64,000 nucleotides of DNA from Flavobacterium sp. H122. GTDB lineage: Bacteria; Bacteroidota; Bacteroidia; Flavobacteriales; Flavobacteriaceae. A model generated the notes under the pieces. That model was given only the letters and a program-made list of their open reading frames with translations. It was not told the origin of the DNA and ran no database searches. The position numbers and the translations under genes were made by a program. Location: positions 1 to 64,000 of the forward strand of contig NZ_SJZD01000012.1 of assembly GCF_004959765.1 (NCBI RefSeq). The letters are read 5' to 3'. Each line of letters opens with the position of its first letter. Position 1 is the first letter of the stretch. This document shows positions 20,838 through 43,843 of this stretch, in pieces.

Positions 20838-20890
20838 TCGTGAAACGATTTTTTATGAAACGTGAAACGAAATTAGAAACCCGAGTAATC
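20836..20890 (+). repeat. left repeat zone of the four-helix-bundle cassette
   Basis: This stretch starts within the wzm stop codon. It carries the small palindrome ATCGTGAAACGAT, a further GTGAAACGA at 20862-20870 and CCGAGTAATC at 20881-20890. GTGAAACGA recurs inverted at 21362-21370 and CCGAGTAATC recurs directly at 21332-21341, on the far side of the small gene. Confidence 0.65.
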
Positions 20891-20920
20891 GAAACCGAAA
20901 TAAAAGATATTAAAAGTAGT

Positions 20921-21271
20921 ATGGAGCATAAAAATCTGGATGTATGGAAAAAAAGCATGGATTTAGTGGAATCAATTTATAAATTGACACAAACTTTTCC
21001 TGAATCAGAGAAATTTGGATTAGTTAGTCAAATGCGTAGATCAGCTGTTTCTATACCATCCAATATTGCTGAGGGTTCTGCCAGAAAAGGAGATAAAGAA
21101 CTGATTCAGTTTTTGTACATTGCGCTAGGATCGATTGCAGAATTAGAAACACAGTATATGATTGCATTACGGTTAAATTTTGTAGAACATGATATGGGTA
21201 TAGAGGAGTTAATGCTTAATGTTAAGAAGATGCTGTTGGGATTCAAGAATTATTTGGGAAGTAAGGCGTGA
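20921..21271 (+). CDS. four-helix-bundle protein (23S rRNA intervening-sequence / S23 family)
   Basis: A 116-residue protein beginning MEHKNLDVWKKSMDLVESIY, with FGLVSQMRRSAVSIPSNIAE (the family signature) and GSARKGDKELIQFLYIALGS followed by IAELETQ. It belongs to the small S23/IVP four-helix-bundle family, related in fold to the Avd accessory protein of diversity-generating retroelements. The in-frame upstream starts (GTG 20840, ATG 20855) would add 22-27 residues encoded by the repeat zone. ATG 20921 gives the usual family length. Function is unknown; nucleic-acid binding has been suggested for relatives. Members often sit inside polysaccharide loci of Bacteroidota as apparent passengers, as here between wzm and wzt. 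Confidence 0.88.
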   Translation: MEHKNLDVWKKSMDLVESIYKLTQTFPESEKFGLVSQMRRSAVSIPSNIAEGSARKGDKELIQFLYIALGSIAELETQYMIALRLNFVEHDMGIEELMLNVKKMLLGFKNYLGSKA

Positions 21272-21382: not shown

Positions 21383-22648
21383 ATGAGCAAAATAGTAATA
21401 AAAGCCGAAAATATTTCCAAACAATACCGCCTTGGATTAGTGGGTACCGGAACCGTACGTGATGATATAAAACGCTGGTGGTATAATATACGTGGTAAAG
21501 AAGACCCATTTTTAAAAATTGGTGAGTCAAATGACCGCTCGGTAAAAGGAGAAAGTGATTATGTATGGTCGCTTAGAGATATTAATTTTGAAATCAACCA
21601 AGGAGATTCGGTAGGAATTATTGGACGTAACGGAGCAGGTAAATCGACGTTGTTAAAAATTTTAAGTCAGGTTACACAGCCTACTACAGGTAAAATTTAT
21701 ACCAAAGGACGTATTGCATCGTTATTGGAAGTAGGGACAGGTTTTCATCCGGAAATGACCGGCCGTGAAAATATTTATCTCAATGGTGCCATTTTAGGGA
21801 TGCGTAAGCATGAAATTACCCGAAAACTAGACGAGATTATTGCTTTTTCCGGTGTGGAACGTTATATAGATACTCCAGTGAAAAGATATTCTTCGGGTAT
21901 GTATGTTCGTTTGGCGTTTGCGGTTGCCGCACATTTAGAATCTGAAATTTTAATAGTTGATGAGGTTCTGGCTGTAGGTGATGCTGAGTTTCAAAAGAAA
22001 TGTTTAGGCAAGATGAACGATGTGAGTAAGGGAGAGGGAAGGACAGTATTGTTTGTGAGTCATAATATGGCAGCGGTGAAGAGTTTGTGTAATAAGGGGA
22101 TTGTTTTAGATAAAGGGAATATAAAATTAATCGGAAATGCTGAAAATGCAGTAAGCCAGTATTTGGGTGGAGATGGAGTTTCTTCAAATAAGAGAATTTT
22201 TGACTCAGTATATAGCAATTCAATATTCAAGTTAAATGAAATAAATCTGTGTTCTTTGGATAAATCAGATAATAATGCTTTAAATGAAAATTTACCAATC
22301 GTTTTAACGACTGAAATAAAATTTTTAGTTCCTGACGCGCATCGTTATCATATTACTTATCATTTGTATAATGAAATGGGTGAACCTCTGTTTTCTTTTT
22401 ATCATACTGAAATTGACGGGAAATTGAAGCAAGGATCTAATACAGTAAAATGCATTTTTCCGGCTAATTTTTTTCAATCCGGTAACTTTTATTTGAGTCT
22501 TTTTATAGTTGAGGATAAAAAGAAATCAATTTTTTCAGAAAAAGATGTTTTGGCCTTTACCGTTACTGATGGAGGAAGAGAATTGGGCGTTTATATGGGG
22601 AGAGAACCAGGTTATGTAAAACCTAAATTTAAATGGGAATTAGAATGA
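21383..22648 (+). CDS. wzt: polysaccharide ABC exporter ATPase (Wzt type) with C-terminal substrate-binding extension
   Basis: A 421-residue protein. Residues 1-250 form the nucleotide-binding domain, with Walker A GRNGAGKS (81-88), signature YSSGM (169-173), Walker B ILIVDE (189-194) and the H-loop FVSHNM. The last ~160 residues are a beta-rich extension like the carbohydrate-recognition domain of Wzt proteins. In characterised systems (O8/O9 type) that domain binds the modified non-reducing end of the glycan and couples chain termination to export. It is partner to the permease at 19980. The stop overlaps the next ATG (ATGA at 22645-22648). Confidence 0.93.
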   Translation: MSKIVIKAENISKQYRLGLVGTGTVRDDIKRWWYNIRGKEDPFLKIGESNDRSVKGESDYVWSLRDINFEINQGDSVGIIGRNGAGKSTLLKILSQVTQPTTGKIYTKGRIASLLEVGTGFHPEMTGRENIYLNGAILGMRKHEITRKLDEIIAFSGVERYIDTPVKRYSSGMYVRLAFAVAAHLESEILIVDEVLAVGDAEFQKKCLGKMNDVSKGEGRTVLFVSHNMAAVKSLCNKGIVLDKGNIKLIGNAENAVSQYLGGDGVSSNKRIFDSVYSNSIFKLNEINLCSLDKSDNNALNENLPIVLTTEIKFLVPDAHRYHITYHLYNEMGEPLFSFYHTEIDGKLKQGSNTVKCIFPANFFQSGNFYLSLFIVEDKKKSIFSEKDVLAFTVTDGGRELGVYMGREPGYVKPKFKWELE

Positions 22649-23721
22649 TCAACGTAACCAAAACTTTTTTCCCGCCTATTGAAGAATATCATGAACAATT
22701 GCAACGCATTTGGTACAACGAGTGGTTAACCAATCGCGGGGAATTGGTGTTGGAATTGGAGGGAAAGTTAAAAGACTATTTGGAAGTTAATCATATTTTG
22801 GTTACTAATAATGGAACTGTGCCTATTCAGATTGCTTTGAAACTGCTTGGGAATGGTGGAGAGATTATTACAACGCCTTTTAGTTATGTGGCTACATCTG
22901 CCGCTATTGTATGGGAAAACTGCACCCCTGTTTTTGTAGATATCCATCCCGAATATTTAACGATTGATGAAACCAAAATTGAAGCGGCTATAACTGATAA
23001 AACGACTTGTATTTTAGCTACTCATGTTTTTGGTAATCCTTGTCATGTGGAAGTTATTGAAGCTATTGCACAAAAGCATAATTTGAAAGTAATTTACGAT
23101 GCAGCACATGCTTTTGGTGTAGTTTATAAAACACAATCTATTTTTAATTATGGAGATGTAAGCACATGTAGTTTTCACGCAACGAAGTTATTTCATACGG
23201 GTGAAGGAGGTGCCTTGTTTGCAAAGGATAACGAATTACAGCATCAATTGTTTTACAGTCATAATTTTGGACACAACGGACCGTTGGACTTTCACGGTTT
23301 GGGAATCAACGGTAAAATATCAGAATTACAGGCTGCTATGGGATTGGCTGTTTTTCCGTACATAAGTGAAATTAGTACCCAGCGTAAAAAAGTAGTGGAA
23401 TTTTATGATACCCATTTGGACTTTTCAAAGCTAAAAAAAATAAGAATCAGGGAGAATACCAATTGGAATTATAGTTATTATCCAGTTATATTTGAAACTG
23501 AAGAAATTTTGTTGAATGTCCAAAAAGCTTTGAATGAGAAACAAATTTTTCCTAGACGTTATTTTTATCCATCGTTAAATACTGTAAATTATGTTCAAAA
23601 GATAAAAATGCCGGTTTCAGAAAGTATCGCTTCCCGAATCTTGTGTTTGCCTTTGTATGTAGGATTAAAAGAAAAGGATTTAGAAAATTGTACAACAATT
23701 ATAAATAAAAATTTATGTTAA
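22645..23721 (+). CDS. DegT/DnrJ/EryC1 sugar aminotransferase, VioA-like
   Basis: A 358-residue PLP-dependent aminotransferase. The N-terminus MINVTKTFFPPIEEYHEQLQ is typical of VioA/FdtB-type enzymes. IYDAAHAFGV holds the PLP-binding Asp, and CSFHATKLFHTGEGG holds the catalytic Lys. Such enzymes convert dTDP-4-keto-6-deoxyhexose to the 4-amino sugar (Qui4N or Fuc4N). ATG 22645, which overlaps the wzt stop by 4 bases, is preferred to ATG 22633. The next two genes are an N-acyltransferase and a Fuc4NAc-transferase-like enzyme, so the three form a plausible amino-sugar making and adding unit. No RmlA or RmlB is in the window. Which epimer is made is not decidable here. Confidence 0.87.
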   Translation: MINVTKTFFPPIEEYHEQLQRIWYNEWLTNRGELVLELEGKLKDYLEVNHILVTNNGTVPIQIALKLLGNGGEIITTPFSYVATSAAIVWENCTPVFVDIHPEYLTIDETKIEAAITDKTTCILATHVFGNPCHVEVIEAIAQKHNLKVIYDAAHAFGVVYKTQSIFNYGDVSTCSFHATKLFHTGEGGALFAKDNELQHQLFYSHNFGHNGPLDFHGLGINGKISELQAAMGLAVFPYISEISTQRKKVVEFYDTHLDFSKLKKIRIRENTNWNYSYYPVIFETEEILLNVQKALNEKQIFPRRYFYPSLNTVNYVQKIKMPVSESIASRILCLPLYVGLKEKDLENCTTIINKNLC

Positions 23722-35015: not shown

Positions 35016-35640
35016 AACAAGAGGCGATTTTGCTCATGAGATGATTGATAAATATTTTAAATCATCACCAAATAAGACGGTTAGCGATATTGGAGCCGGA
35101 TTTGGTTTTATGGGTGAAAAAATTAAAAACTCCGGTGGTGATTGGCAGCCTTTTGATTATGTTCGGAAAATTGAGGAATCAATTATATGGGATTTGAATT
35201 GTTCTGAACCTGAAAATGTTAAAAAAGCCGGTATGGTTATTTTTCTTGAAGTACTGGAACATTTGGCCAACCCGCTATTGGCAATACAAAATATTTCTGA
35301 CCATATAGAAAAAGGAGGCTTTTTGGTGTTAACCACCCCAAATCCACAATCCAGTAAAAACAGAATTAATTTGATGGTAAAAGGTACTTTGTACGCTTTT
35401 CAGGAAAAACACTTGCAGGAACATCATGTTTTTACACCTTGGGAACATATAGTTAAAATGTTTTTGGAACAAACTGGTTTCGAAATATTGGAGTATGCCA
35501 TTGTAGATACCGCATACCAGGGAGAGAAGCCTAAAACTGTCAAGGCATATCTGAAAAAAGTTATCGAAAGATCGATTGAAAAATATAATCCTAAATCGGT
35601 TGGGATGAGTTATGGAATTGTAGCAAAAAAATCGAAATGA
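34990..35640 (+). CDS. class I SAM-dependent methyltransferase
   Basis: A 216-residue protein with the SAM-binding motif TVSDIGAGFGFMGEKI, an acidic loop IIWDLNCSEPE, post-motif VIFLEVLEHLANPLLAIQNI, and LVLTTPNPQSSKNR. It is of the UbiE/Coq3-like type common in glycan clusters. ATG 34990 is chosen because the earlier in-frame ATG 34930 is inside the preceding gene. It could O-methylate a sugar, possibly the chain end recognised by the Wzt extension; that link is inference. It overlaps the neuB-type gene by 4 bases. Confidence 0.85.
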   Translation: MKQVIPQYKTRGDFAHEMIDKYFKSSPNKTVSDIGAGFGFMGEKIKNSGGDWQPFDYVRKIEESIIWDLNCSEPENVKKAGMVIFLEVLEHLANPLLAIQNISDHIEKGGFLVLTTPNPQSSKNRINLMVKGTLYAFQEKHLQEHHVFTPWEHIVKMFLEQTGFEILEYAIVDTAYQGEKPKTVKAYLKKVIERSIEKYNPKSVGMSYGIVAKKSK

Positions 35641-36656
35641 GCGTAAAGAATGAAGTTTATCTCATCGCCGAAATAGGTCAGGCTCATGAAGGCAGTCTGG
35701 GAATACTGCATTCTTATATTGATGCCGTAGCATCAACAGGTGTACAGGCAATAAAATTTCAGATGCATATTGCAGAAGCAGAAAGTAGTTTGTATGAGCC
35801 ATTTCGTGTGAAATTCTCCTTGGAAGACCAAACCCGATACGATTATTGGCAGAGAATGGGCTTTACCTTGGAACAGTGGAAAGAAATTAAAAAACATTGT
35901 GATGAAGTTGGCCTGGATTTTATTTGTTCACCATTTAGTAATCAGGCAGTAGATTGGCTGGAAGAGATTGGAGTTAAATATTATAAAGTCGGCTCCGGTG
36001 AAGTGAACAACCTGTTGTTGCTTGAAAAAATTACAGGAACCAAAAAGCCGGTTATTATTTCTTCGGGTATGAGTTCTTATGAAGAATTGGATTGTACCGT
36101 TGCTTTTTTAAAAGAAAGAAATGTGGCTTTTTCAATTTTGCAATGCACAACTTCTTATCCTACACAACCCGAACAATTTGGTTTTAATGTAATCCGTGAA
36201 TTGAAAGAAAAGTATGGTGTTCCAGTAGGTTTTTCTGATCATTCCGCAAAAGTGTCCACGAATATTGCTGCTGTGGCACTGGGCGCAGAAATACTGGAGT
36301 TTCATGTGGTTTTCGATAGGAGAATGTTTGGCCCGGATACAAAATCCTCATTATTAATCGATGAGGTTTCACAATTGGTGGAGGACGTTAATGCTGTTTA
36401 CAAAGCTATTCAGCACCCGATTGATAAAAGTAATAACAAACAATTCTCTGAATTGAAATCTATTTTTGAAAAATCATTAGCCATAAACAAAGATTTGCCG
36501 AAAGGGCATTGTTTGACTTTTGAAGATTTAGAGGCAAAGAAACCTAAAGGACACGGAATAGAAGCATTAAAGTTTCAAGACGTTATTGGAATGAAGTTAA
36601 AGCATGATATGAAACAATGGAATTTCATTAATGAAAATGATTTAATAAATGATTAG
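35637..36656 (+). CDS. neuB: nonulosonic (sialic-type) acid synthase
   Basis: A 339-residue NeuB-family TIM-barrel enzyme with a C-terminal SAF (antifreeze-like) domain. Visible are YLIAEIGQAHEGSLGILHSY, AIKFQMH, FICSPFSNQAVDWLEEIGVK, YYKVGSGEVNN, IISSGMSS, QCTTSYPTQP, GFSDHSAKV and EFHVVFDRRMFGPD. The SAF part is KSLAINKDLPKGHCLTFEDL and onward. It condenses ManNAc (or a 2,4-diamino hexose in legionaminate/pseudaminate paths) with phosphoenolpyruvate. It is first of neuB-neuC-neuA, all overlapping, so the product is made as a unit and used as a CMP sugar. Confidence 0.93.
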   Translation: MSVKNEVYLIAEIGQAHEGSLGILHSYIDAVASTGVQAIKFQMHIAEAESSLYEPFRVKFSLEDQTRYDYWQRMGFTLEQWKEIKKHCDEVGLDFICSPFSNQAVDWLEEIGVKYYKVGSGEVNNLLLLEKITGTKKPVIISSGMSSYEELDCTVAFLKERNVAFSILQCTTSYPTQPEQFGFNVIRELKEKYGVPVGFSDHSAKVSTNIAAVALGAEILEFHVVFDRRMFGPDTKSSLLIDEVSQLVEDVNAVYKAIQHPIDKSNNKQFSELKSIFEKSLAINKDLPKGHCLTFEDLEAKKPKGHGIEALKFQDVIGMKLKHDMKQWNFINENDLIND

Positions 36657-37812
36657 TAAAAGAAAAATAGCTGTTGTTATTACCGCCCGTCCATCCTACA
36701 GCAGAGTAAAAACTGTTTTGGAGGCCATACAAAACCATTCGGAATTAGAACTTCAGCTGGTGGTTGCCGCTTCAGCACTTTTAGACCGATATGGTTCAGC
36801 AGTGAATTATATTGAGAAAGATGGCTTTACCATTGCTGCTCGGGTTTTTAATGTTCTGGAAGGAGAAAATCTTACAGCTGCAGCAAAAACAACAGGCATC
36901 GGTATTTTGGAATTATCTACTGTTTTTGATAATTTAAAACCGGATGTTGTGGTAACTGTAGCTGATCGTTTTGAAACCATGGCTACAGCCATCGCGGCTT
37001 CCTATATGAATATTCCACTGGCACACATACAAGGAGGAGAAGTTACCGGAAACATAGATGAAAAGGTAAGGCATTCAATCACCAAATTAGCTGATTATCA
37101 TTTTGTAGCTTCTGAAAGTGCAAAAGAACGCGTATTGAAATTGGGAGAAAACCCGGATTTCGTTTTCAATACAGGATGTCCTTCAATAGATTTGGCTAAA
37201 CAGGTAAAAGAAAACAGTGCTGTTTTACCTTTTGATCCTTACGAAAAGTATGGAGGTGTTGGTGCAAAACCGGATTTATCAAAAGGTTATTTAGTAGTCA
37301 TGCAGCATCCGGTTACAAATGAATACCAGGATTCCAGAAAACATATTGAAGCAACGCTTCAGGCTGTTTATAAATTAAATAGACCTACACTGTGGTTTTG
37401 GCCCAATGTAGATGCCGGTGCAGACGGTACTTCAACAGGTATCAGGGCTTTTAGGGAGACCCATCTTTTACCGAATGTCCATTTCTTTAAAAATATGGAA
37501 GGCAAAGATTTTCTGCATTTGCTCAATCACACAGACTGCCTGATTGGAAATTCCAGTGTAGGGATTCGGGAATGTGCTTATCTGGGTGTTCCGGTTGTTA
37601 ATATCGGATCCCGTCAGAACAGAAGGGATCGCGGAGTTAATGTAATAGATGTGGACTATGATGAAGCCAATATTAAAAAAGCTATAGAAGAGCGGATTTT
37701 AAATAAAAATAAAATTGCTTCCAATGTATACGGAGGCGGGAATGCGGGTGAACAGATTGCCGATTTGTTAGAAAAATTGCCAATCCAATTTCATAAAACA
37801 ATCATGTATTAA
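36649..37812 (+). CDS. neuC: hydrolysing UDP-sugar 2-epimerase (NeuC type)
   Basis: A 387-residue epimerase with KIAVVITARPSYSRVKTVLE, VVTVADRFETMATAIAASYM, PLAHIQGGEVTGNIDEKVRH, FNTGCPSIDLA and NSSVGIRECAYLGVPVVNIG. It belongs to the hydrolysing branch (NeuC/LegG/NnaA) and differs from the WecB at 30700. It releases UDP and gives free ManNAc (or the diacetamido analogue) for NeuB. It overlaps neuB by 8 bases and the CMP-synthetase gene by one base. The substrate cannot be settled from sequence alone: no 4,6-dehydratase of a legionaminate path is in the window, which favours the UDP-GlcNAc to ManNAc reading. Confidence 0.9.
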   Translation: MISKRKIAVVITARPSYSRVKTVLEAIQNHSELELQLVVAASALLDRYGSAVNYIEKDGFTIAARVFNVLEGENLTAAAKTTGIGILELSTVFDNLKPDVVVTVADRFETMATAIAASYMNIPLAHIQGGEVTGNIDEKVRHSITKLADYHFVASESAKERVLKLGENPDFVFNTGCPSIDLAKQVKENSAVLPFDPYEKYGGVGAKPDLSKGYLVVMQHPVTNEYQDSRKHIEATLQAVYKLNRPTLWFWPNVDAGADGTSTGIRAFRETHLLPNVHFFKNMEGKDFLHLLNHTDCLIGNSSVGIRECAYLGVPVVNIGSRQNRRDRGVNVIDVDYDEANIKKAIEERILNKNKIASNVYGGGNAGEQIADLLEKLPIQFHKTIMY

Positions 37813-38513
37813 TGAAAATTTTAGGTATTATTCCAGCACGTGGCGGTTCAAAAGGTGTGCCAGGCAAAAATATTAAAATGCTTGGGGATAAGCCTTTATT
37901 AGCCTATAGTGGTGAAGCTGCTTCACAAGCAGCGTTTTTAACAAAAACAATTCTTTCTTCTGATAATGGGGCTATTCAGGCTGTTGCAATAGAATACGGG
38001 CTTGAGGTTCCCTTTACAAGACCTGAAACTTTAGCGACTGATACAGCTTCAAGCATTGATGTGGTGAAGCACGCAGTTGAATATTTGGAAAGACAAGGTG
38101 AATATTTTGATGCGGTTTGCTTACTGCAGCCCACTTCCCCTTTTCGGGAACAAGGATTTATCGATAAAGCCATTCAAAAATTCATAGTTGATGGAACTGA
38201 TGCTTTAGTAAGTGTACTTCCTGTACCGCATGAGTACAATCCACATTGGGTTTTCGAAGTGGATAATAAAGGATTACTGCGGATAGCTACCGGAGAAAAG
38301 GAAATTATTAAAAGAAGACAGGAACTGCCTCAGGCTTATTTTAGAGACGGCTCACTATATATAACAAAAGTTTCGGTTATTAAACAGGGAAGTTTTTATG
38401 GAGAAAAATTAAGTTATATAGAAAGCAATCCTGATTTTTATGTAAATATTGATACATTCCAAGACTGGATTAAAGCCGAAGAGAATTTAAAATTGATTAA
38501 AGATAGATTGTAA
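37812..38513 (+). CDS. neuA: CMP-nonulosonate (N-acylneuraminate) cytidylyltransferase
   Basis: A 233-residue nucleotidyltransferase. MKILGIIPARGGSKGVPGKN is the CMP-sialate synthetase signature, followed by KPLLAYSGEAASQAA, RPETLATDTASSIDVVKHAV, LLQPTSPFREQGFIDKA and FVNID-like FYVNIDTFQDWIKAE. It activates the NeuB product with CTP to the CMP sugar. It overlaps neuC and the amidotransferase gene by one base each. Single-domain length (no esterase extension) is as for bacterial enzymes of this branch. Confidence 0.93.
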   Translation: MKILGIIPARGGSKGVPGKNIKMLGDKPLLAYSGEAASQAAFLTKTILSSDNGAIQAVAIEYGLEVPFTRPETLATDTASSIDVVKHAVEYLERQGEYFDAVCLLQPTSPFREQGFIDKAIQKFIVDGTDALVSVLPVPHEYNPHWVFEVDNKGLLRIATGEKEIIKRRQELPQAYFRDGSLYITKVSVIKQGSFYGEKLSYIESNPDFYVNIDTFQDWIKAEENLKLIKDRL

Positions 38514-40228
38514 TGTGCGGGATTGCAGGAATAGTTTCTTCTTCACTTTCATTGCTTGAAAGAGAAAACCTATTGCATAGGATGCTTGATGCACAGGAAC
38601 ACCGCGGTCCTGATGCCAAACAGGAATGGCATGATCAATGCTGTAGTTTAGGGCATAACCGATTAAGTATTATTGATCTCTCGACAGCAGCCAATCAGCC
38701 CATGCAAAGCAGTTGTGGAAGGTACAGGATAGTTTTTAACGGGGAGATTTATAATTATATTGAAATACGGAATGAACTTCAGCCGTATTTCAATTTTCAT
38801 ACCCAATCAGATACTGAGGTTTTGTTGAATGGGTATATTCATTGGGGGAAAGATTTCCTGCACCGTCTTAACGGAATGTTTTCCATAGCAATATGGGATA
38901 CAAAAGACAGGAAAATGTTCATAGCAAGAGACCGGTTTGGAGTGAAACCATTCTATTATTGCACCGATGCTGCACGTTTCGTTTTTGCAAGTGAGATAAA
39001 AACCATTTGGGGAGCGGGAATCCCTAAAATACCGAACAATAAAATCTGGGCAAATTATTTAAGTTTTGGTACTTACGGACTGCCTCATGAAACGTTTTGG
39101 ACTGGGATTCATCAGTTGCCTGCCGGGCATTATGCTGAAATCAAAAGTAATTCTTTAAATGCAGTACAGCCTGAACTTTGGTATGATTTTGTTTCAAGAG
39201 TTAATGGAATTGAGCCTTTGACAATTAGTCAGTTGCAAAAACAATATACTGATTTACTCAATGATTCCATTCAACTTCGATTTAGAGCTGATGTACCTCT
39301 TGGTATGAATGTGAGCGGTGGTTTGGATTCTTCAACATTAATAGCCCTGATTCATAAAAATTTACCTTTCAGTAAAAAAATGGAAGCTTTTACATTTTAT
39401 TGTAATGATGTGAATTATGATGAATTGCCGTGGGTAGAAGCCTTACTTAAAGATAAGCCCTATTCCTTAAATAAAGTCCTTTTGCAAGCTGAAAACATCC
39501 CGCAATTAATAACTGAAATTGCCGAAAATCAGGATGAGCCTTTTGGAGGTTTTCCAACATTGGCTTACAGTTTATTGTTTCAGGAAGCTGGGAAAAAAGG
39601 AATTAAAGTACTGTTGGATGGTCAGGGGATGGATGAGGCCTGGGCAGGCTACGATTATTATCATAACGAGACAGGAGGTGTTATTCAAGGAGTGACCTCA
39701 AGTCCGGTAAGACCGGAAGTGTTATTGCCTGAGTTTACTCAATTTGCTGATAAAGAAAACTATGTTCAGCCGTTTGCTTCTAAAATGCAGAATATGCAGT
39801 ATAGAGATATCTTTTATACCAAAATACCCAGAGCTTTACGATTTAACGATCGAATCAGTATGATGCACGGAACAGAGTTACGGGAACCTTTTTTAGATTA
39901 CCGCTTAATGGAAATGGCATTTGCTCAAAGTGATGATGTGAAATTTAAAGGAGGCAATACAAAATGGATGTTACGTCAAATCAGTCAGAAATTAATTTCG
40001 GATAAAGTCGCTTTGGCACCAAAAAGACCTTTGCAAACGCCACAACGTGAGTGGATTGCCGGTGAATTGAATGCATATGTCTCTGAAAATATCGGGAAGT
40101 TCTCACAGTTCGATTTTGTCAATAAAATCAAAGTGGAAAAGATTTGGCAGGAATATATTAAGGGAAATCAGGATAATAGTTTTTATATTTGGCAATGGAT
40201 TAATACAGTTGTCTTATTAGAAAATTAA
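38513..40228 (+). CDS. asparagine-synthase-like glutamine amidotransferase
   Basis: A 571-residue AsnB-family enzyme. Cys2 of MCGIAGIVSS is the glutaminase nucleophile, with EHRGPDAKQEW, GHNRLSIIDLS, FNGEIYNY and FIARDRFGVKPFYY completing the N-terminal domain. The synthetase domain has NVSGGLDSSTLIALI (PPi loop), LLDGQGMDEAWAGYDYYHNE and EPFLDYRLMEMA. It lies between the CMP-nonulosonate synthetase and a GT-B gene in a tight operon, so it more likely amidates a sugar carboxylate in the glycan than makes asparagine. WbpS-like enzymes are precedents; this is inference from position. Confidence 0.88.
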   Translation: MCGIAGIVSSSLSLLERENLLHRMLDAQEHRGPDAKQEWHDQCCSLGHNRLSIIDLSTAANQPMQSSCGRYRIVFNGEIYNYIEIRNELQPYFNFHTQSDTEVLLNGYIHWGKDFLHRLNGMFSIAIWDTKDRKMFIARDRFGVKPFYYCTDAARFVFASEIKTIWGAGIPKIPNNKIWANYLSFGTYGLPHETFWTGIHQLPAGHYAEIKSNSLNAVQPELWYDFVSRVNGIEPLTISQLQKQYTDLLNDSIQLRFRADVPLGMNVSGGLDSSTLIALIHKNLPFSKKMEAFTFYCNDVNYDELPWVEALLKDKPYSLNKVLLQAENIPQLITEIAENQDEPFGGFPTLAYSLLFQEAGKKGIKVLLDGQGMDEAWAGYDYYHNETGGVIQGVTSSPVRPEVLLPEFTQFADKENYVQPFASKMQNMQYRDIFYTKIPRALRFNDRISMMHGTELREPFLDYRLMEMAFAQSDDVKFKGGNTKWMLRQISQKLISDKVALAPKRPLQTPQREWIAGELNAYVSENIGKFSQFDFVNKIKVEKIWQEYIKGNQDNSFYIWQWINTVVLLEN

Positions 40229-40230
40229 TA

Positions 40231-41622
40231 ATGAAAAAAATTGGTGTAGTAATTACTGATGGAGTAGGGTTTCGCAATTTTGTATTAAGTGATTTTTTAA
40301 TAAAATCTCAAGAGCAATTTGAAGAAGTTATCGTATTTTCTTGTTTGCCCGAATCAGTCTATCAAAACTTAAATTTTAAAGTTAAAATAGTTGAATTAGA
40401 AGTTTTTGAAGAATCTTTTTATACATGGTTTTTTAGAAAGGCAAAAGAACTTGCGCATTTGCAAAAACACAAAAAAGACAATTTTGGGATTACCGACAAT
40501 CTAAATGCAAATTATTCAAAGGCAAAAACTCCCAGAGGATGGACTACTAGATTTTTGTTCCCAATAACCAGTATCTGTAATTCTGAAAATTGGATTTTAC
40601 GATGGGAAAAATGGCAGCAACTAACCTTTGCCAAAAAAAACATCACAAAAAAATATAGAAAAATTCTAAAAGATTTTGGTCCGGATGTACTCTTTTTTAC
40701 ACATCAACGTCCGCCATTTATAGCACCTTTAATTCACGCCGCTCAAAAACAAAAGATAAAAACAGCCAGTTTTATTTTTAGTTGGGATAATCTGGCATCT
40801 AAAGGAAGAATGGCTGGAAGTTTCGATCATTATTTAGTATGGAGTGAGCTAATGAAAAAAGAATTGCTTCATTTTTATACTTCAATAAAGGAAAACCAAG
40901 TGGGTGTTGTTGGAACACCACAGTTTGAACCTTATATTTTAAATCGATATGGTTTAGATAAGCTGACTTTTTGTAGTAAATTCAATTTAGATTTAAATAA
41001 AAAAACAATTTTATTCAGTTGTGGAGATGTTTCCACAAGCCCTAATGATACAAGATATATAGAGGCTATTGCAGAAATTATTGCTGACGGGAAATTAGAT
41101 GAAGAAGTGAATTTTTTAGTAAGAACTTCACCTGCCGAGACACCTGAACGGTTTAATGAATTAGCCGTTAAGTATCCATGGATTAGCTGGAATTACCCTA
41201 AATGGACTCAAGCCCGATCTAATCATCAGGAAAATTGGTCACAACGTATTCCAACAGTTGAAGATGTCTCCGATTTAAAATCGGTTTTACAGTATTGTGA
41301 TCTATGTGTAAATATGCTTTCGACTATGAGTCTGGATGCTATGTTGTTTGATAAGCCGGTGATTAATACCGTTTTCGGAAATGGCATTAACGGATTGGTT
41401 AATGACCAGAGGTTTTTAAATTATGCACACATAAAAAAAGTGCTTGATAGTGGAGCAGTTACCATTGCTGAAAACGAGGAAGAATTAATTTCGGCAATCA
41501 ATCAATGTTTGTTCACGCCAGATTATAAATTAAATGAGCAAAAAGGACTATTGGAGTTGCAAATTGGCAAACCATTAGAACAAACCAGTAAAAGAATTGC
41601 TCAAGCATTGAGGAATTGCTGA
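40231..41622 (+). CDS. putative GT-B glycosyltransferase of unknown family
   Basis: A 463-residue soluble protein starting KKIGVVITDGVGFRNFVLSD. Two Rossmann-like halves can be seen: DVLFFTHQRPPFIAPLIHAA with TASFIFSWDNLASKGRMAGS in the first, and KKTILFSCGDVSTSPNDTRY plus LQYCDLCVNMLSTMSLDAML then FDKPVINTVFG in the second. The latter is reminiscent of the donor site in CDP-glycerol-transferase or Kdo/sialyl-type GT-B enzymes. Its place right after neuBCA and the amidotransferase makes it a candidate nonulosonate transferase. I cannot assign a CAZy family. The gene ends 53 bases before the GtrB-like gene. Confidence 0.65.
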   Translation: MKKIGVVITDGVGFRNFVLSDFLIKSQEQFEEVIVFSCLPESVYQNLNFKVKIVELEVFEESFYTWFFRKAKELAHLQKHKKDNFGITDNLNANYSKAKTPRGWTTRFLFPITSICNSENWILRWEKWQQLTFAKKNITKKYRKILKDFGPDVLFFTHQRPPFIAPLIHAAQKQKIKTASFIFSWDNLASKGRMAGSFDHYLVWSELMKKELLHFYTSIKENQVGVVGTPQFEPYILNRYGLDKLTFCSKFNLDLNKKTILFSCGDVSTSPNDTRYIEAIAEIIADGKLDEEVNFLVRTSPAETPERFNELAVKYPWISWNYPKWTQARSNHQENWSQRIPTVEDVSDLKSVLQYCDLCVNMLSTMSLDAMLFDKPVINTVFGNGINGLVNDQRFLNYAHIKKVLDSGAVTIAENEEELISAINQCLFTPDYKLNEQKGLLELQIGKPLEQTSKRIAQALRNC

Positions 41623-41675
41623 CAGGTTAATTGGTTTGAAATGCTTTTGAACTTTCCCTTAGTTAAATTATAAAT

Positions 41676-42608
41676 ATGAAAGAAGAATTTAGTCCTGAAA
41701 TTTCATTTGTAAGCCCTGTTTACAAAGCAGAAAGAATACTTGATAAATTAGTTTCGGAAATTCAGAAGGTGATGGACGAAATCAATCAACCCTATGAAGT
41801 TATTTTAGTTGATGATAGAAGTCCTGATGGAAGCTGGCAGGTTATGAGAAAAATTTCAAGCAAATTTCCCGAGGTGAAAAGCATCAGATTGAGCAGAAAT
41901 TTTGGACAGCATCCGGCAATTATGGCTGGATTGTCTATGGCAAAAGGGGAGTGGGTTGTTGTAATGGATTGTGATTTACAAGACCAGCCAAAAGAGGTAT
42001 TGAAATTATACAATAAAGCCAAGGAAGGGTTTGATATAGTTTTCGCGAAACGAAAACACAGAAAAGATGGGTTTTTAAAAAAAATGTCATCTGCCATTTT
42101 TTCTAAAGTGTATAGCTTTTTTACTGATACAAAGTATGACAATGAAATTGCTAATTTTGGGATTTACAATAAAAAAACAATAAAGTCAATCCTTGAAATT
42201 ACTGATGCAATAAAATTTTTTCCTCTTTTCGTTAAACTTGTAGGATTTAATTTTACTTCAGTTGTGGTGGAACACGCTGAAAGAGAAGAAGGCGAATCTA
42301 GTTATAGTTTTTCAAAATTAATTAGTCTGGCATTTAATACTATTATTTCATTCTCAAATAAACCGTTGAAGCTCTTCGTGAAGTTTGGAATTACTATGTC
42401 AATGATTTCATTTCTTTTTGGAATTTATAACATATATCTCGCAATGACAAATCAAATTGAAGTTTTAGGTTATAGTTCTATCATTGTTTCTGTTTGGTTT
42501 TTATCTGGAATAATTATTACAACTATTGGTGTAACAGGTATTTATATCGGTAAAATATTCGATCAGACTAAAAATAGACCCACCTTTATAATTGATGAAA
42601 TAGTATGA
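41676..42608 (+). CDS. GtrB/DPM1-type polyprenyl-phosphate glycosyltransferase
   Basis: A 310-residue GT2 enzyme with EISFVSPVYKAERILDKLVS, VILVDDRSPDGSW, RLSRNFGQHPAIMAGLSMAK and VVMDCDLQDQPKE (metal site). Two C-terminal transmembrane helices lie at about 233-255 and 268-292. This is the class that makes undecaprenyl-phosphate sugars (GtrB, ArnC, DPM1 relatives) for use outside the inner membrane. A GT-C-type enzyme at 43836 may use its product. The stop TGA overlaps the start of the decayed acetyltransferase (ATGA at 42605). Confidence 0.88.
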   Translation: MKEEFSPEISFVSPVYKAERILDKLVSEIQKVMDEINQPYEVILVDDRSPDGSWQVMRKISSKFPEVKSIRLSRNFGQHPAIMAGLSMAKGEWVVVMDCDLQDQPKEVLKLYNKAKEGFDIVFAKRKHRKDGFLKKMSSAIFSKVYSFFTDTKYDNEIANFGIYNKKTIKSILEITDAIKFFPLFVKLVGFNFTSVVVEHAEREEGESSYSFSKLISLAFNTIISFSNKPLKLFVKFGITMSMISFLFGIYNIYLAMTNQIEVLGYSSIIVSVWFLSGIIITTIGVTGIYIGKIFDQTKNRPTFIIDEIV

Positions 42609-42728
42609 TAAAAAAGCTTGATTGGGATTCGGATGCAGAGATCCAATATAGGCGCTTGCTATATATATGAGAAACTCGGGTACAAGGTTTTAGAAGAAAA
42701 GTACATTAAACATTATTGGAGAATATGA
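42605..42728 (+). pseudogene. scar of a GNAT acetyltransferase (WecD/RffC-like), internally deleted
   Basis: ATG 42605 overlaps the previous stop as ATGA and opens MIKKLDWDSD, an N-terminus typical of WecD-like GNATs. After codon 10 the frame degenerates and stops at 42670. In another frame 42633-42728 encodes QRSNIGACYIYEKLGYKVLE followed by EKYIKHYWRI and a TGA. This is a classic GNAT C-terminus (N-x-x-A-C-x-x-Y-E-K-L-G-Y). That TGA overlaps the WecE-type gene start as ATGA (42725-42728). Both original junctions are kept while the ~150-200 middle codons are gone. A GNAT next to wecE would acetylate dTDP-Fuc4N. Confidence 0.82.
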
Positions 42729-43843
42729 TTCCATTCAACAAGCCTTATTTAACAGGTAAGGAAACACAATATATCGAAGAAGCTGTAAAGTCTGGGAAAA
42801 TTTCAGGCAATGGAATTTTTACACAAAAGTGTCAAACATTCTTCGAAAATAAATACAGTTTTAAAAAAGTATTGTTAACAACTTCTTGTACAGATGCTCT
42901 TGAAATGTGTGCGATTTTAGCAGATATTAAATCTGGAGATGAGGTAATAATTCCAAGTTATACTTTTGTTTCCACCGCATTAGCTTTTGTGAGACAAGGA
43001 GCCAAAGTAATATTTGCTGATTCTTGCAAGAATACTCCTAATATTGATGTTAAAAAAATTGAATCACTTATCACTGATAAAACAAGAGCAATTGTACCGG
43101 TTCATTATGCAGGTATGGCCTGCGAAATGGATGAGATAATGGAAATTGCTAATCGATACAATCTAATTGTAATTGAAGATGCTGCACAAGCTATTGATGC
43201 TTATTATAAAGGAAAACCTTTAGGTTCTATAGGGCATTTAGCTGCTTTTTCATTCCATGAAACTAAAAATATAATAGCTGGCGAAGGAGGTATGATAGTG
43301 GTTAATGATGAACGTTTTATACATCGTACCGAAATAATCTGGGAAAAAGGGACAAATAGAGCAGAGTTTTTCAGAGGCGAAGTAAATAAATATGGATGGG
43401 TGGACACAGGCTCGTCTTTTTTGCCTTCAGAAGTGATTGCTGCTTTTTTATGGGCACAGATTGAAAATATAGATAAAATTCAACAAAGGAGACTGCAGAT
43501 ATGGAAGTTTTACGAGACTGAATTGAAAGATTGGGCTGATTTAAATGATATAGAATTAATCAAAGAAATAGAAGGAGCTTCAAATAATGCACATATGTTT
43601 TATTTAGTTTGTAAATCTATTGGACAAAGAACACAGCTGATAAATCATCTTAAAGAAAATAATATTCATGCCGTTTTTCATTATATAAGTTTGCATTCAA
43701 GTCCGTTTTATATTGAAAAGCATGATGGAAGAATGTTGGTAAATAGTGATAAGTTTACGGATAGATTACTTCGTTTACCTATGTTTTATGAACTGGAAGA
43801 AAAAACTGTTGTTCAAATTATTAAGGAATTTAGAAATGTTTAA
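42725..43843 (+). CDS. wecE: dTDP-4-amino-4,6-dideoxygalactose transaminase (WecE/RffA)
   Basis: A 372-residue DegT-family enzyme matching E. coli WecE block by block: MIPFNKPYLTGKETQYIEEA, LLTTSCTDALEMCAILADIK, GDEVIIPSYTFVSTALAFV, PVHYAGMACEMDEIM, IEDAAQAID, FSFHETKNIIAGEGG (catalytic Lys), WEKGTNRAEFFRGEVNKYGW, and HAVFHYISLHSSP. It makes dTDP-Fuc4N from dTDP-4-keto-6-deoxyglucose and glutamate. ATG 42725 (ATGA overlap with the GNAT scar) is preferred to TTG 42716. The acetyltransferase expected beside it is destroyed, while a WecF-like transferase and another acyltransferase lie 18 kb upstream in the same operon. Confidence 0.93.
   Translation: MIPFNKPYLTGKETQYIEEAVKSGKISGNGIFTQKCQTFFENKYSFKKVLLTTSCTDALEMCAILADIKSGDEVIIPSYTFVSTALAFVRQGAKVIFADSCKNTPNIDVKKIESLITDKTRAIVPVHYAGMACEMDEIMEIANRYNLIVIEDAAQAIDAYYKGKPLGSIGHLAAFSFHETKNIIAGEGGMIVVNDERFIHRTEIIWEKGTNRAEFFRGEVNKYGWVDTGSSFLPSEVIAAFLWAQIENIDKIQQRRLQIWKFYETELKDWADLNDIELIKEIEGASNNAHMFYLVCKSIGQRTQLINHLKENNIHAVFHYISLHSSPFYIEKHDGRMLVNSDKFTDRLLRLPMFYELEEKTVVQIIKEFRNV

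Follow-up and report, generated by a model that had tools for sequence, protein, structure and literature searches.

The 124 bases at 42605-42728 of the window, the whole stretch of 64,000 nucleotides of Flavobacterium sp. H122 DNA that was analysed, are the two ends of a WecD-like GNAT, out of frame with each other. The window copy of wecD is a pseudogene and not a functional member of the WecD-like GNAT family. The explanation we lean towards, with somewhat better than even confidence, is an internal deletion of wecD with acylation supplied in trans by a hexapeptide acyltransferase encoded on contig C46 of the same genome. The features of the site are as follows.

41676-42608, + strand: gene for a gtrB-like polyprenyl-phosphate sugar transferase (GT2), 310 aa, intact (Pfam Glycos_transf_2, E 3.2e-28)
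42605-42634, + strand: N-terminal remnant of wecD, MIKKLDWDSD, codons 1-10 (matrix score and the L003 homologue)
42605-42670, + strand: 21-codon ORF in the old wecD start frame (ORF reading)
42633-42728, + strand: 31-codon ORF with its ATG (42633) at the junction, in frame with the C-terminal remnant
42635-42635, + strand: deletion junction, a single base assignable to neither side (comparison with alignment A1 and L003)
42636-42728, + strand: C-terminal remnant of wecD, QRSNIGACYIYEKLGYKVLEEKYIKHYWRI with its stop, overlapping the wecE start (profile E 1.5e-7, matrix score)
42725-43843, + strand: wecE, for a dTDP-4-keto-6-deoxyglucose C4-aminotransferase, 372 aa, intact (NCBIfam)

At the left, the wecD ATG at 42605 overlaps the gtrB stop (TGA, 42606-42608) and at the right the stop of the remnant (TGA, 42726-42728) overlaps the wecE ATG at 42725, each overlap being an ATGA. 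The old wecD frame reads MIKKLDWDSD, then AEIQYRRLLYI, and stops at 42668-42670; QRSNIGACYIYEKLGYKVLEEKYIKHYWRI, the last 30 codons, is coded by 42636-42725 in a different frame. The LDWDSDFF-type motif that follows the start is kept as far as LDWDSD, and from the C-terminal motif TQxxNxxACxFYxKxGY ... IKHYW the stub keeps Q, N, AC, Y, K, GY and IKHYW, the T being lost at the junction and F changed once to I. The middle domain is absent, and the loop QGKGIG, whose three glycines are invariant in A1 (first row, positions 168-173), went with it. The glycine loop of GNAT enzymes binds acetyl-CoA; since the middle that holds it is gone, the WecD-like enzyme is dead. The flanking genes are complete. 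WecE passes both of its NCBIfam models, PRK11706 (NF008687) with 566.4 bits (cut-off 375) and TIGR02379 with 507.1 bits (cut-off 434.85), and the gtrB product reaches 203.2 bits with PgfS and 184.9 bits with PRK10714, both scores being under the cut-off. Upstream, at 35637-40228, lie nonulosonic acid genes of the neuB, neuC and neuA type and, behind them, a gene for an asparagine synthase (38513-40228); further off, at 20840-21271, the window carries a gene for a 23S rRNA intervening-sequence protein between those for an ABC-2 permease and an ABC ATPase.

The likeness of the two stubs to the ends of WecD-like proteins is not due to chance. With a scoring matrix made from 14 intact WecD-like proteins of other genomes (alignment A1), the window being excluded, the N-terminal stub scores 28.8 bits and the next of 128,227 six-frame window positions 13.1, a margin of 15.7, while the C-terminal stub scores 56.6 bits and the next of 128,206 positions -4.7. 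Both stubs are placed where the ends of wecD should be. A profile of the same 14 proteins found the C-terminal remnant in the whole genome (E 1.5e-7), with one generic GNAT, at C34:287484, ranked above it.

Among 499 relatives of wecE from public genomes, the best 80 supplied the loci for comparison; the intact WecD-like genes in relatives have about 226-240 codons. In L002, L003 (Flavobacterium swingsii) and L005 (F. frigoris), an intact gene with similar ends lies between the same two genes, the ORF there having 230-241 residues from stop to stop and the gene 684-708 bp. In all three the end of the gene overlaps the wecE start as ATGA, as in the window; its start forms an ATGA with the gtrB stop in L003 and L005 and lies 13 nt behind this stop in L002. 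The homologue in L003 (L003:5321-6004) starts with MNVKKLDWDSD and ends with IIKHYWRI, and the DNA CATTATTGGAGAATATGATTCCATTCAACAAGCC is identical in L003 and the window. A preliminary description of the site had given both ATGA junctions and the two terminal peptides in different frames, exactly in coordinates and peptides. Its reading, that a WecD-like GNAT gene between gtrB and wecE lost its middle out of frame, is borne out by relatives with an intact gene and the predicted termini; the intact gene of 550-750 bp that it expected at this locus is found in L002, L003 and L005, and the objection it raised against itself, that no relative might carry such a GNAT between both genes, clearly falls with the same three loci. 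L002 is the closest wecE relative among the best 80 of 499 (79% identity) and has the same 40231-gtrB-wecD-wecE order. It is filed as a metagenome bin of Limnohabitans, a proteobacterium, and the contig may have been misbinned from a Flavobacterium.

All three intact relatives that were tested hit GNAT models in Pfam. Their best NCBIfam model is PRK10975 (NF008212), dTDP-4-amino-4,6-dideoxy-D-galactose acyltransferase, with 103.6, 87.4 and 95.0 bits, short of the cut-off of 219, and TIGR02382 gives 42-57 bits, short of 195.1. By these model scores, the tested proteins are relatives of WecD and not certified equivalogs. The 14-protein profile matched 42 sequences in the Protein Data Bank. The best-scoring, the putative streptothricin acetyltransferase 3pp9, spans profile positions 137-218 only, and 41 of the 42 are matched by the C-terminal half of the profile only, unlike E. 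coli WecD (RffC), TDP-fucosamine acetyltransferase (2fs5 / 2ft0), with which positions 2-221 of 230 align to residues 17-229. This near full-length match places the lost gene in the WecD-like family.

The spacing between gtrB stop and wecE start is 116 nt in the window, against 659-844 nt in 21 loci with WecD. Computed against 17 distances picked by hand from WecD loci, the shortfall is 543-601 nt (560 against L003, 563 against L005, 601 against L002), the size of an internal deletion of about 540-600 nt that removed wecD codons 11 to about 197 and left the ends out of frame, presumably in a single and recent event. The C-terminal remnant has no internal stop codon, and leave-one-out scores of the C-terminal part are 54.3-57.7 for the window and 42.6-77.4 for the 14 intact proteins. 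This suggests that wecD was lost recently, on a stretch of 30 codons that is too short for dating, and recency is unproven because the three nearest intact relatives (67.7-77.4) all outscore the remnant.

That the middle of an intact wecD was merely dropped in assembly is very improbable. The genome is a draft of 47 contigs, which leaves some room for such an error, but the scar lies well inside an 88-kb contig, the profile search of the genome found no misplaced middle on another contig, and the genome is rated 100% complete and 0.08% contaminated. A rearranged or invertible gene was also considered and is not supported, as the profile search gave no full-length or middle WecD piece anywhere in the genome.

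The scar was sought in 398 genomes of the genus (own genome included) with window:42400-43000 as query. Matches at E 1e-15 occur in 91 of the 398, two candidates per genome being scored, and the best relatives are about 80% identical over the query; among the matches listed, only the own genome spans the scar. No closer relative was found among the matches listed for a gtrB-to-wecE query in 150 genus genomes (113 match, most only by a short wecE piece), nor with 40231-42608 as query in 60 relatives (12 match, the best other one 75% identical). These searches bear on the 31-codon ORF, which runs open from the ATG at the junction to a TGA that still overlaps the wecE start and perhaps keeps translational coupling to wecE. 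It is quite unlikely that this ORF is a leader kept for coupling gtrB translation to wecE: no sampled relative among the matches listed has the scar, and the frame is open by descent from wecD, which may have been lost only a short time ago.

The gene slot before wecE was followed through 140 loci: 80 from the best 80 of the 499 wecE relatives, 20 that include the own C46 stretch, and 40 more. Identical WecE sequences being counted once, these give 127 distinct WecE loci (at least 450 bits), 37 of which have a GtrB of more than 300 bits within 1.2 kb upstream of WecE; the window itself stands outside this set, and loci with other GtrB types or ended by a contig or stretch end were excluded. 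The genome regions behind these counts are a nonrandom choice from the better matches to the gtrB-wecE and 42400-43000 queries. Among the 37, WecD fills the slot 21 times, a hexapeptide acyltransferase of ~265 aa 11 times and a formyltransferase twice, while one locus each has a long GNAT, an unclassified 240-aa protein (no Pfam match at E 1e-4) and a WecD-WecE fusion. These counts are biased frequencies, the loci having been selected by similarity to the window wecE. An empty slot occurs in none of these 37 other gtrB-wecE loci (a separate gene in 36, the fusion in one). The WecDs of the 21 slots score 228-314 bits with the profile, their loci are almost all from Bacteroidota by title or genus, and in eight wecD-bearing loci rmlA lies in the same stretch. 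The fusion (L184:1957-3774, G152:C14) joins WecD and WecE in one reading frame (...IKHYWKMIPFNKPYL...), a natural acetyltransferase-aminotransferase fusion where other loci have the ATGA overlap. A second, independent ruin of WecD before wecE, in two frames with internal stops, is seen in a Bacteroidetes metagenome bin (L032:3300-4420), where a sequencing error may also be at work.

Outside the set of 37, NeuD/PglD-type enzymes lie directly before wecE (L004, L006, L008, L010 and others), as does a second formyltransferase type in L058 and L136, and many of the 127 loci have another gene there, such as one for a membrane protein or an acyltransferase-3-like protein. The NeuD/PglD, hexapeptide and formyl transferases (L004, L013, L018, L058) fill the position before wecE as wecD does but belong to protein families other than that of WecD, and the formyltransferases probably add a different acyl group. 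Because acyl-modifying enzymes from more than one family occupy the slot in Flavobacterium and other Bacteroidota, the N-substituent of Fuc4N may be variable and predictable from the genome. A wider reading would make the slot an exchangeable N-acyl cassette, with acetyl added by a GNAT or a hexapeptide enzyme, with formyl instead, or with the enzyme fused to WecE. This cassette would set both the charge and the antigenicity of Bacteroidota surface glycans, and this strain would be a natural null showing free-amine, positively charged Fuc4N; taken whole, the reading is rather improbable. In the literature on Wec or Fuc4N in Flavobacterium or Bacteroidetes no title on the slot before wecE was found, which is no proof of absence. 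A pathway survey states that Fuc4NAc is found only in Gammaproteobacteria (PMC7725333), and the 21 gtrB-wecD-wecE loci, mostly from Bacteroidota, stand against that statement. The sub-cut-off scores of the three WecD proteins tested may explain why such genes were missed. The loss of wecD in this strain is an ordinary single gene loss in a variable polysaccharide locus, and the results of more use are the slot with its exchangeable genes and the pairing of wecD with wecE in Bacteroidota.

A second WecD was not found: of 11 matches to the profile in the genome at E 0.01, one is the C-terminal remnant and ten are partial, lying within profile positions 101-226 of 230 and reaching 37.5 bits at best. 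The best, the 195-codon ORF at C34:287484 (E 2.8e-9), was rejected as a second WecD, as it covers positions 125-222 only. The ~265-aa hexapeptide type seen in other slots has no match in the genome at E 1e-5. The formyltransferases of the genome are fmt (C45) and an fmt-like gene at C46:165456 (125.5 bits, cut-off 201.5). At 23715 in the window (contig C4) lies a true NeuD-type gene (TIGR03570, 194.2 bits, cut-off 160.8), which overlaps a DegT aminotransferase gene (22633-23721) whose product is 28% identical to WecE. The NeuD-type enzyme probably serves this aminotransferase, and it is 31-32% identical to the NeuD-type wecE neighbours of L004 and L008. Another NeuD-type gene, at C46:154476, has its own partner too, because it overlaps a gene for a LegC-type aminotransferase (390 bits, cut-off 420).

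One outcome would be that the glycan of this locus goes without the acyl step, unacylated Fuc4N carrying a free amine into the surface polysaccharide. The destroyed wecD beside an intact wecE, the failure to find another WecD in the genome and the filled slot in 37 of 37 other such loci, which makes an empty one unusual, speak for this reading. We consider it unlikely, however: a transferase evolved for an acylated sugar would need to accept the free amine, and a Fuc4N-type locus on C46, with the only rmlA found, has an acyltransferase at the wecD position. The preliminary description had the acyl step lost or replaced, or the surface glycan changed. This consequence is only partly supported: no second WecD was found, but loss of the step itself is not established, given the C46 enzyme, and the substitute it had named, the NeuD-type enzyme at 23715, is a weaker candidate, disfavoured by the overlap with its own aminotransferase gene and the low identity to NeuDs that partner wecE.

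The locus on C46 (L120:3315-8154, G000:C46) has the gene order rmlB, rmlA, hexapeptide acyltransferase (147 aa), wecE and a wzxE-like flippase gene, the start of this second wecE overlapping the hexapeptide gene. Its WecE reaches 578.9 bits with PRK11706 and has 64% identity with the window WecE; the flippase scores 215 bits with the WzxE model, below the cut-off of 325. The rmlA here is the only one in the whole genome at E 1e-30, and no match to RmlA or RmlB was found in the window, so the substrate of the window WecE, if it is the usual one, comes from C46. Both WecE enzymes probably share one dTDP-sugar pool. The gene position, rmlB-rmlA-X-wecE-wzxE-like, makes the hexapeptide enzyme a candidate dTDP-Fuc4N N-acyltransferase, and it is the best candidate for acylation in trans, ahead of the NeuD-type enzyme at 23715. 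Its best solved relative is 8vr6 (66 bits), named 'Acetyltransferase, putative', on which nothing relevant was found in the literature, and a search of NCBIfam at E 1e-20 gave no model for the C46 enzyme. Searches of 198 other genomes of the genus at E 1e-35 and of 298 other genomes of a family sample at E 1e-20 gave no match to it, so that its linkage to wecE is seen in one genome.

The order on C46, the only rmlA and the shared pool together make supply in trans likely. The preferred explanation would run as follows. The lost gene would be wecD, for a GNAT-type dTDP-Fuc4N N-acetyltransferase that is now dead, beside a wecE that is intact and presumably active. The loss would be tolerated through a shared cytoplasmic pool of nucleotide sugars, in which dTDP-Fuc4N from either WecE could be N-acylated by the C46 enzyme, and its consequence is probably buffered. 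What speaks against supply from C46 is that the two WecE enzymes, 64% identical, may make different products, that the flippase is under the WzxE cut-off, and that the hexapeptide enzyme was found in one genome, its best solved relative being named as a putative acetyltransferase. Rival sources of the acyl group are the NeuD-type enzymes (C4:23715 and C46:154476), the formyltransferase-like enzyme of C46 and the GNAT at C34:287484.

In Salmonella, a mutation in wecD abolishes enterobacterial common antigen and does more harm than one in wecA, the gene of the first step, probably through a lipid-linked precursor that stays trapped (PMC7439462). By this account, a strain with wecE and gtrB but no wecD must replace the enzyme, tolerate the free amine or have a dead branch. 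The last of these, in which the window branch is being abandoned, the sugar stays untransferred without an acyl donor and wecE is next to decay, draws on the greater harm in the wecD mutant and its lack of the antigen (PMC7439462), but wecE and gtrB are intact and full length and the shared pool may compensate, which makes it an unlikely course.

The locus on C46 shares the order rmlB-rmlA-acyltransferase-wecE-wzxE-like with the wec operon of enterobacterial common antigen, whose order in E. coli is that of C46 with wecD at the hexapeptide position, but it carries an unrelated 147-aa hexapeptide enzyme at the place of wecD. The window locus departs from the wec operon in its gtrB-like transferase before wecE and in having no rmlA or rmlB. 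In the enterobacterial operon wecD stands directly before wecE, a placement that the intact relatives share; the copy in the window is a ruin.
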